A stretch of DNA of 64,000 nucleotides from Sandaracinus amylolyticus (lineage in GTDB: Bacteria > Myxococcota_A > Polyangia > Polyangiales > Sandaracinaceae), in contig NZ_CP011125.1 in the NCBI RefSeq assembly GCF_000737325.1, forward strand, positions 5,146,001 through 5,210,000. The letters run 5' to 3'. The notes below the pieces were generated by a model that was given only the letters and a program-made list of their open reading frames with translations, had not been told where the DNA came from and ran no database searches. Position 1 is the first letter of the stretch. Each line of letters starts with the position of its first letter. The position numbers and the translations under genes are program-made. Below, one piece after another: positions 6,648 through 55,703 of this stretch.

Positions 6648-7934
6648 TTACACCGCCGCGAACGCAGCCCGAGCGGCCGCCGCGGTGTGCCGCAGGGTGG
6701 CCTGGTCGTGGGCACTGCTCACGAACCCGGCCTCGTACTGAGCAGGGGGCCACATCACGCCCGCGTCCAGCATCGCGTGGTGCCATCGACCGAACGCCGC
6801 CGTGTCGCAGCGCGCCGCGTCCTCCCACGAGCGCACCTCGCCCTCGCAGAAGAACGGCGTGATCATCGAGCCCGTGCGCTGCACCCGCACCGGCACCTTC
6901 GACGCCTTCGACGCCTCCACCAGCACCGCTTCGAGCTCGGCGCTCGCGGCCTCGAGGCGATCGTAGAAGCCCGCGTCGCCGTCGAGGATGCGCAGCGTCG
7001 CCAGGCCCGCCGCCACCGCGAGCGGGTTCCCGCTCAGCGTGCCCGCCTGGTAGACCGGCCCGATCGGCGAGACCTTCTCCATGATCTCGCGCCGCCCGCC
7101 GTACACGCCGACCGGCAGGCCACCGCCGACGATCTTGCCCAGCGTCGTGAGGTCCGGCGTGATCCCGAAGCGCTCCTGCGCGCCGCCCTTCGCGAGGCGG
7201 AAGCCCGTCATCACCTCGTCGAACACCAGCAGCGCGCCGTGCTTCGTCGTCAGCGCGCGCAGCGCGTCGAGGAACGCGCGGTCCGGCGGCACCGTCCCCA
7301 TGTTCCCGACCACCGGCTCGAGGATCACCGCCGCGATCTCGCTGCCGCGCGCCGCGAAGAGCTCGTGCAGCGCCGTCACGTCGTTGTACGGGAGCACCGT
7401 GCACGTGCTCGCGATCGCCGCCGGCACACCCGCGCTCGTCGGCACGCCGAACGTCGCGAGCCCGCTGCCCGCCTTCACCAGCAGGTAGTCCGCGCCGCCG
7501 TGGTAACAGCCCTCGAACTTCACGACGAGGTCGCGCCCCGTGAACCCGCGCGCCACCCGCAGCGCGCCCATCACCGCCTCGGTGCCGCTCGACGTGAAGC
7601 GCATCATCGAGATCGACGGGACCATCTTCGCGATCAGGTCCGCGAGGTCCGTCTCCTGCGCAGTCGGCGCGCCGTAGCTCGCGCCGCGCGTCATCGCGTG
7701 CTGCACCGCGCTCACCACGTCGGGGTGCGCGTGCCCGACGATCATCGGGCCCCACGAGCCGACGTAGTCGACGTACTTCTTGCCGTCCGCGCCCCACAGG
7801 TACGCGCCCTCGGCGCGGTCGACGAAGACGGGCGTACCACCCACCGCGCGGAACGCGCGCACGGGGGAATTCACGCCACCGGGGAAGCGCTCCTGGGCGC
7901 GGCGGAAGTGCTCGGCGGAGACGGGGTCGCTCAT
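6648..7934 (-). CDS. hemL: Glutamate-1-semialdehyde 2,1-aminomutase
   Basis: A 428-residue PLP enzyme that turns glutamate-1-semialdehyde into 5-aminolevulinate in the C5 route to heme. Landmarks are [11 protein letters not shown] at 18-28, SSGTEA at 115-120, FDEVMTGFR near 238-246 and the PLP lysine 267 in [13 protein letters not shown] 7934 gives the family's usual N-terminus; the frame remains open far upstream only because of the 107-base repeat array. The start codon is 16 bases from the array and has no purine-rich Shine-Dalgarno sequence. The pathway gene hemB is 22 kb away. Confidence 0.96.
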
Positions 7935-7950
7935 GGGGCGCGCAGCATAG

Positions 7951-8378
7951 CAGTCCGAGGATCGACGCCGCGCTCGGAGCGGGTCGCCTTCGCGAGCAGC
8001 CGACGCGCGGAGGGCACGGTGGCGATCCTCGGACTGCGATGACACCGAGGAGCACAGCAGTCCGAGGATCGACGCCGCGCTCGGAGCGGGTCGCCTTCGC
8101 GAGCAGCCGACGCGCGGAGGGCACGGTGGCGATCCTCGGACTGCGATGACACCGATGAGCACAGCAGTCCGAGGATCGACGCCGCGCTCGGAGCGGGTCG
8201 CCTTCGCGAGCAGCCGACGCGCGGAGGGCACGGTGGCGATCCTCGGACTGCGATGACACCGAGGAGCACAGCAGTCCGAGGATCGACGCCGCGCTCGGAG
8301 CGGGTCGCCTTCGCGAGCAGCCGACGCGCGGAGGGCACGGTGGCGATCCTCGGACTGCGATGACACCGATGAGCACAG
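7951..8378. repeat. Four tandem 107-base repeats in the hemL leader
   Basis: The unit starts CAGTCCGAGGATCG and recurs at 7951, 8058, 8165 and 8272 with almost no changes. Each unit contains the inverse complement CGATCCTCGGACTG (first copy 8023-8036), so arms of 14 bases can pair within a unit (58-base loop) or between neighbours (21-base loop). The base before GAGCA at the unit end alternates G, T, G, T, which points to duplication of a 214-base dimer. The period is not a multiple of three. The array fills most of the gap between hemL and the divergent kinase gene. Confidence 0.97.
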
Positions 8379-8423
8379 CCCGGGCGGATTGACGCGCGAG
8401 GGTGCCGGAGTGACGCTCGGCGC

Positions 8424-9524
8424 GTGCCCGCCGACAACTCGCGCATCTCGACGAAGCTGCGGCGCGCGCCCACGCGCTACGTGCCGACGCAGCGCATCGC
8501 CGCGGGCGGCATGGCCGAGGTGTGGAAGGGGCTCGCGCACTTCGAGGGCGGCGACTCGTATCCCGTCGCGCTCAAGCGCGTCCTGCCCGAGCTCGCGGCG
8601 CAGGAGCTCTACCGCTCGATGTTCATGGACGAGGCGCGCCTCGGCATGCAGCTGCGCCACCGCAACATCGTGCGGGTCTACGACGCGCGCGAGGTGCAGG
8701 GCTCGCTGATCATGGTGATGGAGCTCGTCGAGGGGACGACGCTCAAGGCGGTGCTCGATCGCGCGCACGCACGCGGCGCGTGCATGCCGGTCGCGACCGC
8801 GCTCTGGATCACGCGCGAGCTCGCGCGGGCGCTCGCTTATGCGCACGAGGCGCAGGACGCGACGGGACGCCCGCTGCAGATCGTCCATCGCGACGTCTCG
8901 CCGCACAACCTGCTGCTCGGCAAGGACGGCGCGGTGAAGCTCGCGGACTTCGGGCTCGCCGACGCGAACGTGCACGAGACGCAGCTCGGCGGCGGGATGA
9001 TGGGCGGCAAGCTCGGCTACCTCGCGCCGGAGATCATCCAGCAGCAGCCGACCACGCCGCAGATCGACGTGTTCGCCGCGGGGATCGTGCTGTGGGAGAT
9101 GCTGTGCGGGCGGCGGCTCTTCCAGCGCGACGACGACGGCGCGACGGTGCGCGCGGTCGCGGCGTGCGAGGTGCCGCGGCCCTCCGCGATCAACCCGCGC
9201 ATCCCGCGCGAGGTCGATCGCCTGGTGATCGGCGTGCTCGCGCGTGATCCCGCGAAGCGCACGGCGGGCGCAGGCGCGCTCGCGAGCGCGCTCGACGAGC
9301 TGATCCAGTGGCTCGACCCGAAGGTGTCGGCGCGGGACGTCGCGCTGGTGGTCGGGCTCCAGCTCGCGACCGAGCCCCCGAAGCCGACGAAGACCGTGCT
9401 GCCGCCCGCGCCGAACTTCCTCGCGGAGCTCGACACCCTCGCCGAGACCGCGAACGAGTCCGACTTCGGCGCGGCGCCGCTCGATCCGAGCCTGTTCGAC
9501 GGCGGCCGCCGGCGCGGCCGCTGA
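8424..9524 (+). CDS. Hanks-type serine/threonine protein kinase
   Basis: A soluble kinase of 366 residues. The glycine loop is [11 protein letters not shown] (26-36), the ATP lysine is Lys51 in VALKRV, helix C has Glu70, the catalytic loop is HRDVSPHN with Asp157 and Asn162, and DFG is at 175-177, followed by APE. After the kinase fold come about 60 residues ending in an acidic tail ([16 protein letters not shown]), with no membrane segment or sensor. The start is GTG 8424. It faces away from hemL and is followed by a convergent repeat-filled gap. Substrates are unknown. Confidence 0.92.
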
Positions 9525-9948
9525 CCGCTCCGAGCCTGCGACCAGGCATCCCGCGTATCGGGAGTGAGCCGGCCGCGGGCCCCCGAGGGCTCCGTGCCCG
9601 TCCTGGAGCGGGCCCGACGCGGCGAACATGGGCGCCTTTCACGTCGCCGGGCGTCGCGGGGAGGCCCCCACGAGGCGTCGTGGCCGTCGCGGAGGGCGAT
9701 CGAACGCCTCGAAGGTGCGGCCGTGACGTCCGCGGAGCCGGATCCGGCGCGTGGATCCGGCTCCGCGACCGTCGAGATGGGCGCTCGAACGCCCGGATCG
9801 CGCGCCCGGGGCGTCGCCGGAGCCGGCTCGAGCGCGTCGATCGGGCTCCGCGGGCCCTCGGGACGGCGGCTCGAGCGCGTGGATCGGGCGCCGCGGGCGT
9901 CACGGGCGACGACTCGAAGCGTTCGATCGCGCTCCGCGACGCGCTGGG
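9525..9948. other. Repeat-filled junction between convergent genes
   Basis: The 424-base gap between the kinase and the next minus-strand gene has no gene I can support. Its right half is a degenerate array with a period near 43 bases. The left half is G+C-rich with shorter related fragments (GGATCCGG, CTCGAACGC). Open frames across it exist in several phases and I regard them as by-products of base composition. Confidence 0.6.
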
Positions 9949-20000: not shown

Positions 20001-20320
20001 GCTGGCTCACCTCGGTGCGAACGCGGAGGCCCTCGGCCCCCGAATTCTCATCTCGATGCGAACGTGGAGGGCCTCGACCTCCGAATTCTCATCTCGATGC
20101 GAACGTGGAGGGCCTCGACCCCCGAATTCTCATCTCGATGCGAACGTGGAGGGCCTCGACACCCGAATTCTCATCTCGATGCGAACGTGGAGGGCCTCGG
20201 GCCCCGAATTCTCATCTCGATGCGAACGTGGAGGGCCTCGGGCCGCGAATTCTCATCTCGACTCGAGCGCGGAGGCCGTCCGCCCCCCGAGTTCCCATCT
20301 CGACTCGAGCCCGTAGTCCG
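20001..20320. repeat. Tandem 41-base array with EcoRI-site spacing
   Basis: GAATTC occurs at 20042, 20083, 20124, 20165, 20206 and 20247, exactly 41 bases apart. The unit is GAATTCTCATCTCGATGCG, then AACGTGGAGGGCCTCG and a short variable end. Five units are nearly identical; the flanking ones (from 20001 and after 20247) decay progressively. The array lies between convergent genes, 55 bases from the end of the sensor kinase gene. Confidence 0.97.
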
Positions 20321-27744: not shown

Positions 27745-28725
27745 TCAGTCGAGGATGCGGAGCAGCTCCACGTCGAACACGAGCGTGCCCTGGGGCCCGG
27801 GGCGTCCTTCGTACGCGAGGCTCGCGGGGATCCAGAAGCGACGCTTCTCGCCCTCGACCATCAGCTGCACGCCCTCGGTCCAGCCGGGAATGACGCGGTT
27901 CAGCGGGAACTGCGCGGGCTGACCGCGGGTGACGGAGCTGTCGAACATCTGGCCGTCGGTGGTCCAGCCGCTGTAGTGGACCTCGACCCGGCTCGTCTCG
28001 CTGGGATGACGCGTGCCGGTGCCGGGACGCAGGACGCGCGACGCGAGGCCCGACGCGGTGCGCTGCGCGGTGCGCGGCGCTTCTGCGACGTCCTCGGGGA
28101 CCGCGGGCGGCTCGGGCGCGCGCTCGAACGAGAGCAGCTCGACGTCGAACACGAGCGTGCCCTGCGGGCCGGGGCGACCTTCGTACGCGAGGTTCGCGGG
28201 GATCCAGAAGCGGCGCTTCTCGCCCTGCACCATCAGCTGCACGCCCTCGGTCCAGCCGGGGATGACGCGATCGAGCGGGAACGTCGCGGGCTCGCCGCGG
28301 GTCACCGAGCTGTCGAACATGCGGCCGTCGGTGGTCCAGCCGGTGTAGTGGACGGTCACGCGATCGCGCGGGCCGGGGTGATCGCTGCCGGTGCCGCGCT
28401 GGACGACCTTCGACGCGAGGCCCGACGCGGTGCGCTCGGCATCCGCGGGCGCAGCGGCGACGTCGGCGGGCGCGGGCAGGCCCTCGGGCTCCTCGGGCTC
28501 GGGACGCGCGGCGCGCGCGTGCGGATCGGCATGCGGATCGGCGTGCGGATCGCGCGCCGCATGCGGGTCGCGCGCGGCGTGCGGATCGCCGTGCGCGGCC
28601 GCGCCTTCGCTGCTCGAGGGGCGGAACTGCGGCTCGTCGCGATCGCACGCGGAGAGCGCGGCGGTGCTCGCACCAGCGAGCGCGAGAGCGATGGAGAGGG
28701 CGCGGATCCCGTGCGTGCCGTTCAT
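27745..28725 (-). CDS. Lipoprotein with two FKBP-type peptidyl-prolyl isomerase domains
   Basis: The 326-residue precursor has a lipobox ALSAC (Cys27), then a low-complexity spacer of DPHA-type repeats with about six histidines, and two FKBP domains in tandem. Both contain RVxVHYxGWTTDGxMFDSS, a VIPGWTEGVQLM loop and LAYEGRPGPQGTLVFDVELL, and both keep the catalytic-pocket Tyr, Phe-Asp and Trp. The domains are very similar in DNA too, so the duplication is recent or homogenised. I choose ATG 28725 because it opens directly into the signal peptide; ATG 28749 is an alternative. It should act as a periplasmic or surface folding helper. Confidence 0.92.
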   Translation of the reverse strand: MNGTHGIRALSIALALAGASTAALSACDRDEPQFRPSSSEGAAAHGDPHAARDPHAARDPHADPHADPHARAARPEPEEPEGLPAPADVAAAPADAERTASGLASKVVQRGTGSDHPGPRDRVTVHYTGWTTDGRMFDSSVTRGEPATFPLDRVIPGWTEGVQLMVQGEKRRFWIPANLAYEGRPGPQGTLVFDVELLSFERAPEPPAVPEDVAEAPRTAQRTASGLASRVLRPGTGTRHPSETSRVEVHYSGWTTDGQMFDSSVTRGQPAQFPLNRVIPGWTEGVQLMVEGEKRRFWIPASLAYEGRPGPQGTLVFDVELLRILD

Positions 28726-55152: not shown

Positions 55153-55703
55153 GACGCGCGCGGACGCTGCGCGCGCCGTCGCAACCACCGCCCGACCCGT
55201 CGCAAAGACCGTCCCGCTCGCGCCGACGCCGCCCGAGCTGTCGCCGACGCCGCTGTCCTGTGCCCGACGCCGCGCGAGCTGTCCCCGACACCGCTGTCCT
55301 GTGCCTGACGCCGCGCGAGCCGTCGCCGACGCCGCTGTCCTGTGCCCGACGCCGCGCGAGCTGTCGCCGACGCCGCTGTCCTGTGCCCGACGCCGCGCGA
55401 GCTGTCGCCGACGCCGCTGTCCTGTGCCCGACGCCGCGCGAGCTGTCGCCGACGCCGCCGTCCTGTGCCCGACGCCGCGCGACCTGTCGCCGACGCCGCT
55501 GTCCTGTGCCCGACGCCGCGCGAGCTGTCGCCGACGCCGCTGTCCTGTCCCCGACGCCGCGCGAGCTGTCGCCGACGCCGATTTCGTGTCCCCGACGCCG
55601 ATTTCCTGTCCCCGACGCCGATTTCCTGTGCCCGACGCCGCGCGACCTGTCCGCGACACCGAACACCCTGTGCCCGGCGCCGCGCTTCCTGCGCCGCCGG
55701 GCG
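55153..55703. other. Repeat-filled junction between convergent genes
   Basis: The 551-base gap between Hsp70 and the Sel1 gene is occupied from about 55220 to 55690 by the tandem array. The first 70 bases are Arg-codon-like G+C-rich sequence without a gene. I support no coding frame here, although frames stay open. Confidence 0.65.
55220..55690. repeat. Tandem 41-base array built from 20/21-base half units
   Basis: The word GCTGTCC recurs at 55252, 55293, 55334, 55375, 55416, (55457), 55498 and 55539, exactly 41 bases apart. Each unit consists of a 21-base half (CCGACGCCGCTGTCCTGTGC type) and a 20-base half (CCGACGCCGCGCGAGCTGTC type) with a shared core CCGACGCCG and end CTGTC. From 55570 on the array switches to half units with GATTTC. 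It lies between convergent genes. Confidence 0.95.

Follow-up and report, generated by a model that had tools for sequence, protein, structure and literature searches.

The tandem array that lies between hemL and a divergent protein kinase gene in Sandaracinus amylolyticus is, in our estimate with a probability of roughly 0.83, the product of a lineage-specific event in which a small palindromic repeat of the non-autonomous kind inserted at the promoters of the two genes, and of subsequent tandem amplification. Its sequence is best regarded as selfish DNA, any effect being incidental at most. The array is found in a 64,000-nucleotide stretch of DNA (the window, to which all coordinates refer unless a genome is named) from a 10,327,335-bp single-contig genome, designated here as G000, and the most informative comparison is with G002, a relative from the same genus.

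The array consists of four units of exactly 107 bp, 428 bp in total (TRF score 851, 98% matches; Table 1). A sequence-only reading of this DNA had placed the units at 7951, 8058, 8165 and 8272 and had described a G, T, G, T alternation at one base, and both the coordinates and the sequence bear this out. In particular, the units differ solely in this alternation, at unit position 106, and in one base at the hemL-side boundary, which reads ATAG where all other unit boundaries read ACAG; units 2 and 4 are identical. These differences agree with the history proposed in that reading, from unit to dimer to two dimers, and the fact that the units show no other difference suggests that the last duplication was recent. 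The copy number may plausibly vary. The PacBio reads of S. amylolyticus DSM 53668 average 4.67 kb at about 85x (PMC5010890) and span the 428 bp, so that an assembly artefact is unlikely if this strain is the source.

Table 1. Features of the hemL/kinase region of the window and loci of the dispersed hairpin family.
Feature	Position	Strand	Remarks
hemL, glutamate-1-semialdehyde 2,1-aminomutase	6648..7934	-	TIGR00713, PF00202
Predicted hemL -10, TATGCT, 9 nt from ATG	7944..7949	-	Position kept in relatives; genome-wide leaderless signal
Boundary repeat AGCATAGC, left copy	7944..7951	.	Core ATAG 7947-7950, putative insertion target, single in G002
Left perfect 15-bp arm of unit 1 hairpin	7950..7964	+	Recurs each 107 bp
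Tandem array, four 107-bp copies of a palindromic mobile-type element	7951..8378	.	Absent at same G002 junction
Unit 1, hemL-proximal, G at alternating base	7951..8057	+	Covariance-model match 7946-8041
Right perfect 15-bp arm of unit 1 hairpin	8023..8037	+	Recurs each 107 bp
Unit 2, T at alternating base	8058..8164	+	Covariance-model match
Unit 3, G at alternating base	8165..8271	+	Covariance-model match
Unit 4, T at alternating base	8272..8378	+	Covariance-model match
Boundary repeat AGCACAGC, right copy	8372..8379	.	Core ACAG 8375-8378, read as mutated target duplicate
Predicted kinase promoter, TTGACG-N17-GACGCT, 6 nt before GTG	8389..8417	+	Kept in G002 and G001
Divergent Ser/Thr protein kinase	8424..9524	+	PF00069
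Family loci in G000	hemL array; 6400286; 3438501; 5253112 (deleted copy); 7046235 (partial)		
Family loci in G002	1771526; 3611165; 6383761; 1426331 (deleted); 8209305 (truncated)		

Each unit carries perfect inverted arms, as had been noticed, of 15 bp rather than 14 (GCAGTCCGAGGATCG / CGATCCTCGGACTGC). The arms are spaced by 58 nt within a unit and by 19 nt between neighboring units, and the two pairing geometries proposed for them, within a unit or with the next one, hold as folding potential. They are embedded in a longer imperfect hairpin with 40-nt arms that are 78% complementary, and the predicted fold of a single unit reaches -65.9 kcal/mol (z of -5.6 relative to shuffles). In a genome as GC-rich as this one, perfect 15-bp arms by themselves are nothing unusual (approximately 8-12 expected per 1.26 Mb); what stands out is the whole hairpin and its tandem repetition, not the bare arms. 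A scan of the region returned no intrinsic terminator and no consensus sigma-70 promoter, and a search of the unit against Rfam gave no family at the gathering score, the sub-threshold hits being microRNA-like and sRNA chance matches only. An integron attC site was set aside by eye, as the stem edges carry no RYYYAAC/GTTRRRY core, and the neighboring repeat at 9694-9938 is unrelated to the unit (19.8 bits, i.e. noise).

Evidence for an insertion comes from G002, whose HemL is 96% identical and whose hemL/kinase junction lacks the array, while the flanks are otherwise near-identical. On the hemL strand this junction reads GCGCCCGGGCTATGCTCCGCGCGCC-ATG, and the window splits that same sequence at CTAT/ATAG by 428 bp. 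In other words, relative to G002 the array is a clean 428-bp insertion at ATAG, which leaves the hemL -10 intact on the hemL side, and an array-free junction in a same-genus relative means that the array is no part of a conserved hemL control region. The target is a single ATAG in G002 and appears as ATAG/ACAG around the array. That the right copy is ACAG instead of ATAG counts against the insertion reading, and the 8-bp boundary repeat could point to a different insertion chemistry at this site.

How does the array relate to the expression of its neighbors? The identity of hemL is given by a TIGR00713 score of 583.7 bits (cut-off 527.3), and the 16 nucleotides between array and ATG, the missing Shine-Dalgarno sequence and the 46 bases to the kinase start are all as had been claimed. 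A C/T-A-n-n-C-T hexamer is present 8-9 nt from the ATG in all nine hemL genes of the family that were examined, and outside the genus six of six relatives have a TTG-containing hexamer 17 nt above the -10-like hexamer. Upstream of the kinase, the arrangement TTGACG-N17-GAsGCT-N6-GTG is shared by all three genus members. What is more, TAnnnT is strongly enriched 6-11 nt before coding ATG/GTG codons in 1.26 Mb of the genome (74 cases over the six spacings), with 7-16 cases per spacing before coding starts versus 0-6 elsewhere. Taken singly, the promoter scores are not above background, and the case therefore rests on conserved position and spacing. On these grounds the hemL transcript, as judged from its predicted start, is probably leaderless, which would explain why hemL has no Shine-Dalgarno sequence, and both mRNAs are predicted to be essentially leaderless. 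The -10-like TATGCT occupies the gap between array and ATG, which places the array upstream of the predicted hemL start site; and since this -10 and the kinase promoter lie on either side of the array and face away from it, neither predicted transcript should include it. The edge of the element also places a TG one base before the hemL -10 (TGcTATGCT, compared with GGcTATGCT in G002), and we infer that it may serve as a compensating extended -10. In the array-free G002 the two promoters overlap, with the kinase -35 falling in the sequence that directly precedes the hemL -10, and the likely physical effect of the array is hence a separation of the two by approximately 428 bp. In another genome, G008, the upstream neighbor of hemL seems to be a gene that reads the same way as hemL and ends in a kinase-like C-terminal tail, an arrangement unlike the divergent pair of the genus.

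The search for the unit elsewhere in the genome, which the sequence-only reading had suggested, came out differently by method. BLAST with the unit found no second place in its own genome outside the array, and searches with the unit or with its arms, whether by BLAST or by exact pattern, returned nothing above chance level outside the array; covariance models, however, find diverged family members. Namely, a first model built from the four hemL units alone matched G002:1771526 (E 2e-14), G000:6400286 (1e-11) and G000:3438501 (5e-10), and further copies were gained with later models, to which found members had been added, and with BLAST from a better member. The members are interlinked by BLAST from one of them at 81-91% identity (E 4e-19 to 1e-15) and add up, over the two genomes, to some nine or ten loci, about four in G000 and five in G002; G000:9226157 (40.8 bits) was excluded as doubtful after its sequence had been read. 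The hemL unit itself is a divergent member (65-73% identity), and three members score 61-64 against it by sequence only, where the best of 4,494 null windows scores 52. The covariance models found no member in the third genome of the genus and, among 115 genomes of the order, only one weak match outside the genus. The plasmid collection searched gave no match, and the four matches of the exact core pattern in viral contigs do not include a family member. As far as we searched the literature, the family seems to be undescribed in myxobacteria.

The members are palindromic and approximately 100-115 bp long, and their consensus starts with nTAG-CAGCCCGT and folds into a single long hairpin, interrupted by a symmetric internal loop of GGA/GGA. 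Across the family, 90.5% of cells in the hairpin are paired and 15 of 40 pairs show compensatory changes, compared with 5.7 in shuffles, none of 500 of which reaches 15; the alignment was informed by structure, so that this covariation leans towards it, and slid controls collapse. The hairpin starts at the left edge of the element and ends approximately 16-19 nt before the right edge, and the outermost ends show only weak inverted repeats. The copy at G002:1771526 is also partly duplicated in tandem. Its counterpart, G000:5748500-5749900, keeps GATAGCAGCGCATCGAACGACG and then diverges, and the retained piece looks like a relic of the left end of the element.

Several copies can be compared with their empty sites. 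For two G002 copies these are present in G000 as CTCTAGGC and ACTCTAGG. The copy at G002:1426331 has a CTAG on either side; at the corresponding place G000 has just one, which is the stop of both convergent genes. The copy at G002:8209305 starts directly after a CTAG that G000 has without the copy; CTAG is rare, at 0.08 per kb. Overall, presence and absence at orthologous sites is seen for the hemL array, G002:1426331, G002:8209305 and G000:3438501, and target site duplication at G002:1426331 (CTAG twice) and at hemL (ATAG/ACAG), with no clear one at G000:3438501. A SigJ/SigX4-type sigma-factor gene (G000:3438369-3439361) harbors the copy at G000:3438501, which lengthens the gene by 37 in-frame codons and interrupts region 2; the G002 orthologue is insertion-free. 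The copy at G000:6400286 lies between two stop codons, and G002 (1113900-1114700) has an unrelated stretch in a similar position between the same stops, so that the insertion there was not simple.

Could the array be something other than an amplified mobile-type element? The sequence-only reading had raised a structured leader, in which hairpins at the 5' end of the hemL transcript would switch between two folds and so control heme synthesis. The strong fold of the unit, its two alternative pairings and the adjacency to hemL speak for it, but the predicted -10 puts the hemL start downstream of the array, leaderless starts are common in the host genome, the junction in G002 is array-free, the same hairpin family sits at unrelated genes and no Rfam family reaches its gathering score. 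Altogether, a leader is very improbable. A multimeric operator, whereby a DNA-binding protein would recognize the palindromic unit and four copies would tune the hemL/kinase pair, had been raised as well. The array is indeed palindromic, repeated and located between divergent promoters, and the idea is possible in principle; it is unneeded, however. Against it speak that the unit belongs to a family dispersed at unrelated genes, including places where an operator makes no sense, such as between convergent genes or within a coding gene, and that G002 does without the array. We give it equally little credence.

It could also be argued that the hairpin was born in place by a replication accident and copied in tandem, with no mobile element involved. 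The growth of the array is itself local, and by BLAST the unit is found nowhere else, which is in keeping with this neutral origin, whereas the existence of homologous hairpins at other loci, which have loops and edges in common, and the precise empty sites for several copies are not; we consider it the least probable of the explanations discussed here.

Returning to the insertion of a mobile-type repeat, the inserted element would comprise about 103 bp plus the 4-bp target, here ATAG. Against this reading weigh the divergence of the hemL unit from the other members, the weak inverted repeats at the ends and the lack of a Y1 transposase in the three genus genomes. A single copy would have entered at ATAG between the back-to-back promoters of hemL and the kinase, after which the distal target copy would have mutated to ACAG. 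The 107-bp unit may then have been duplicated by slippage or by unequal exchange between the boundary repeats AGCAYAGC, a single base would have changed in one unit of the dimer, and the dimer would have been duplicated in turn (1 to 2 to 4). In such a scheme, the hemL -10 would stay by the start codon, the element replacing only the DNA upstream and supplying the TG of the extended -10, and the kinase promoter would be left untouched. More tentatively, and in our opinion somewhat doubtfully, the family may represent a novel, genus-specific palindromic family, for which a non-Y1 enzyme recognizes the folded hairpin with its GGA/GGA loop and cuts at CTAG, and which amplifies in tandem and lends an extended -10. 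Since either strand of CTAG reads as a stop codon, an element that lands where convergent genes overlap would, in that reading, restore both stops.

Among known systems, the Rickettsia palindromic elements measure 105-146 bp (PMC2229807) and occur in intergenic positions as well as in frame within protein genes (PMC2229807, PMC10969869). The family described here resembles them in length, long stem-loop, restriction to a genus and the occurrence of intergenic and in-frame copies, a likeness of features and behavior only. It differs in its host, a GC-rich myxobacterium, in far fewer copies, with one in-frame case seen, and in its CTAG/ATAG target and visible empty sites. ERIC, IRU, RU-1 and other bacterial MITEs are imperfect palindromes of approximately 100-130 bp, mostly intergenic and non-autonomous, with a short target duplication (PMC2229807), and the family shares all of these traits with them; unlike them, it is low in copy number and GC-rich, has an NTAG rather than a bare TA target, and shows no convincing terminal inverted repeats and no known parent IS. 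REP elements are abundant and 20-40 bp long (PMC3733652). The nTAG tetranucleotide directly before the hairpin and the conserved stem irregularity recall GTAG-tagged REP/RAYT systems, in contrast to the length of approximately 100-115 bp and the small number of loci. Mobilization of the REP/RAYT kind was rejected, as Y1 transposase (PF01797) was found in none of the three genus genomes, with control genomes positive. By analogy, then, the array appears to behave like a bacterial MITE and to come closest in behavior to the Rickettsia palindromic elements, and we claim membership in no named family.

Other repeats in this genome deserve mention. Tandem arrays with a period of 41-43 bp account for 23 rows in 1.26 Mb, versus 4 at 38-40 bp; the units of different arrays bear no sequence relation to one another, a palindromic core is present in several of them, and in length they come close to four helical turns. 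They include 20006-20303, 55223-55685 and 9796-9938 in the window and, among other loci, L157:13888, L178:12374, L161:3869, L166:10726, L181:12129 and L195:1186. At G000:6130981-6131196, a different hairpin of approximately 117 bp is present in about 1.9 tandem copies beside a third arm, a second tandem hairpin duplication, and the window has, at 27760-28464, a tandem duplication of 372 bp (1.9 copies, 84% matches) that may reflect the doubling of a protein domain.

What looked like a regulatory oddity thus becomes a traceable case of small mobile DNA that settled in the promoter of an essential pathway and multiplied there. In-frame entry into a coding gene, in the manner of the Rickettsia palindromic elements, is encountered here in a free-living, large-genome bacterium unrelated to Rickettsia. 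Finally, the existence of an array-free relative, G002, makes any effect of the array on the expression of hemL and the kinase directly testable.
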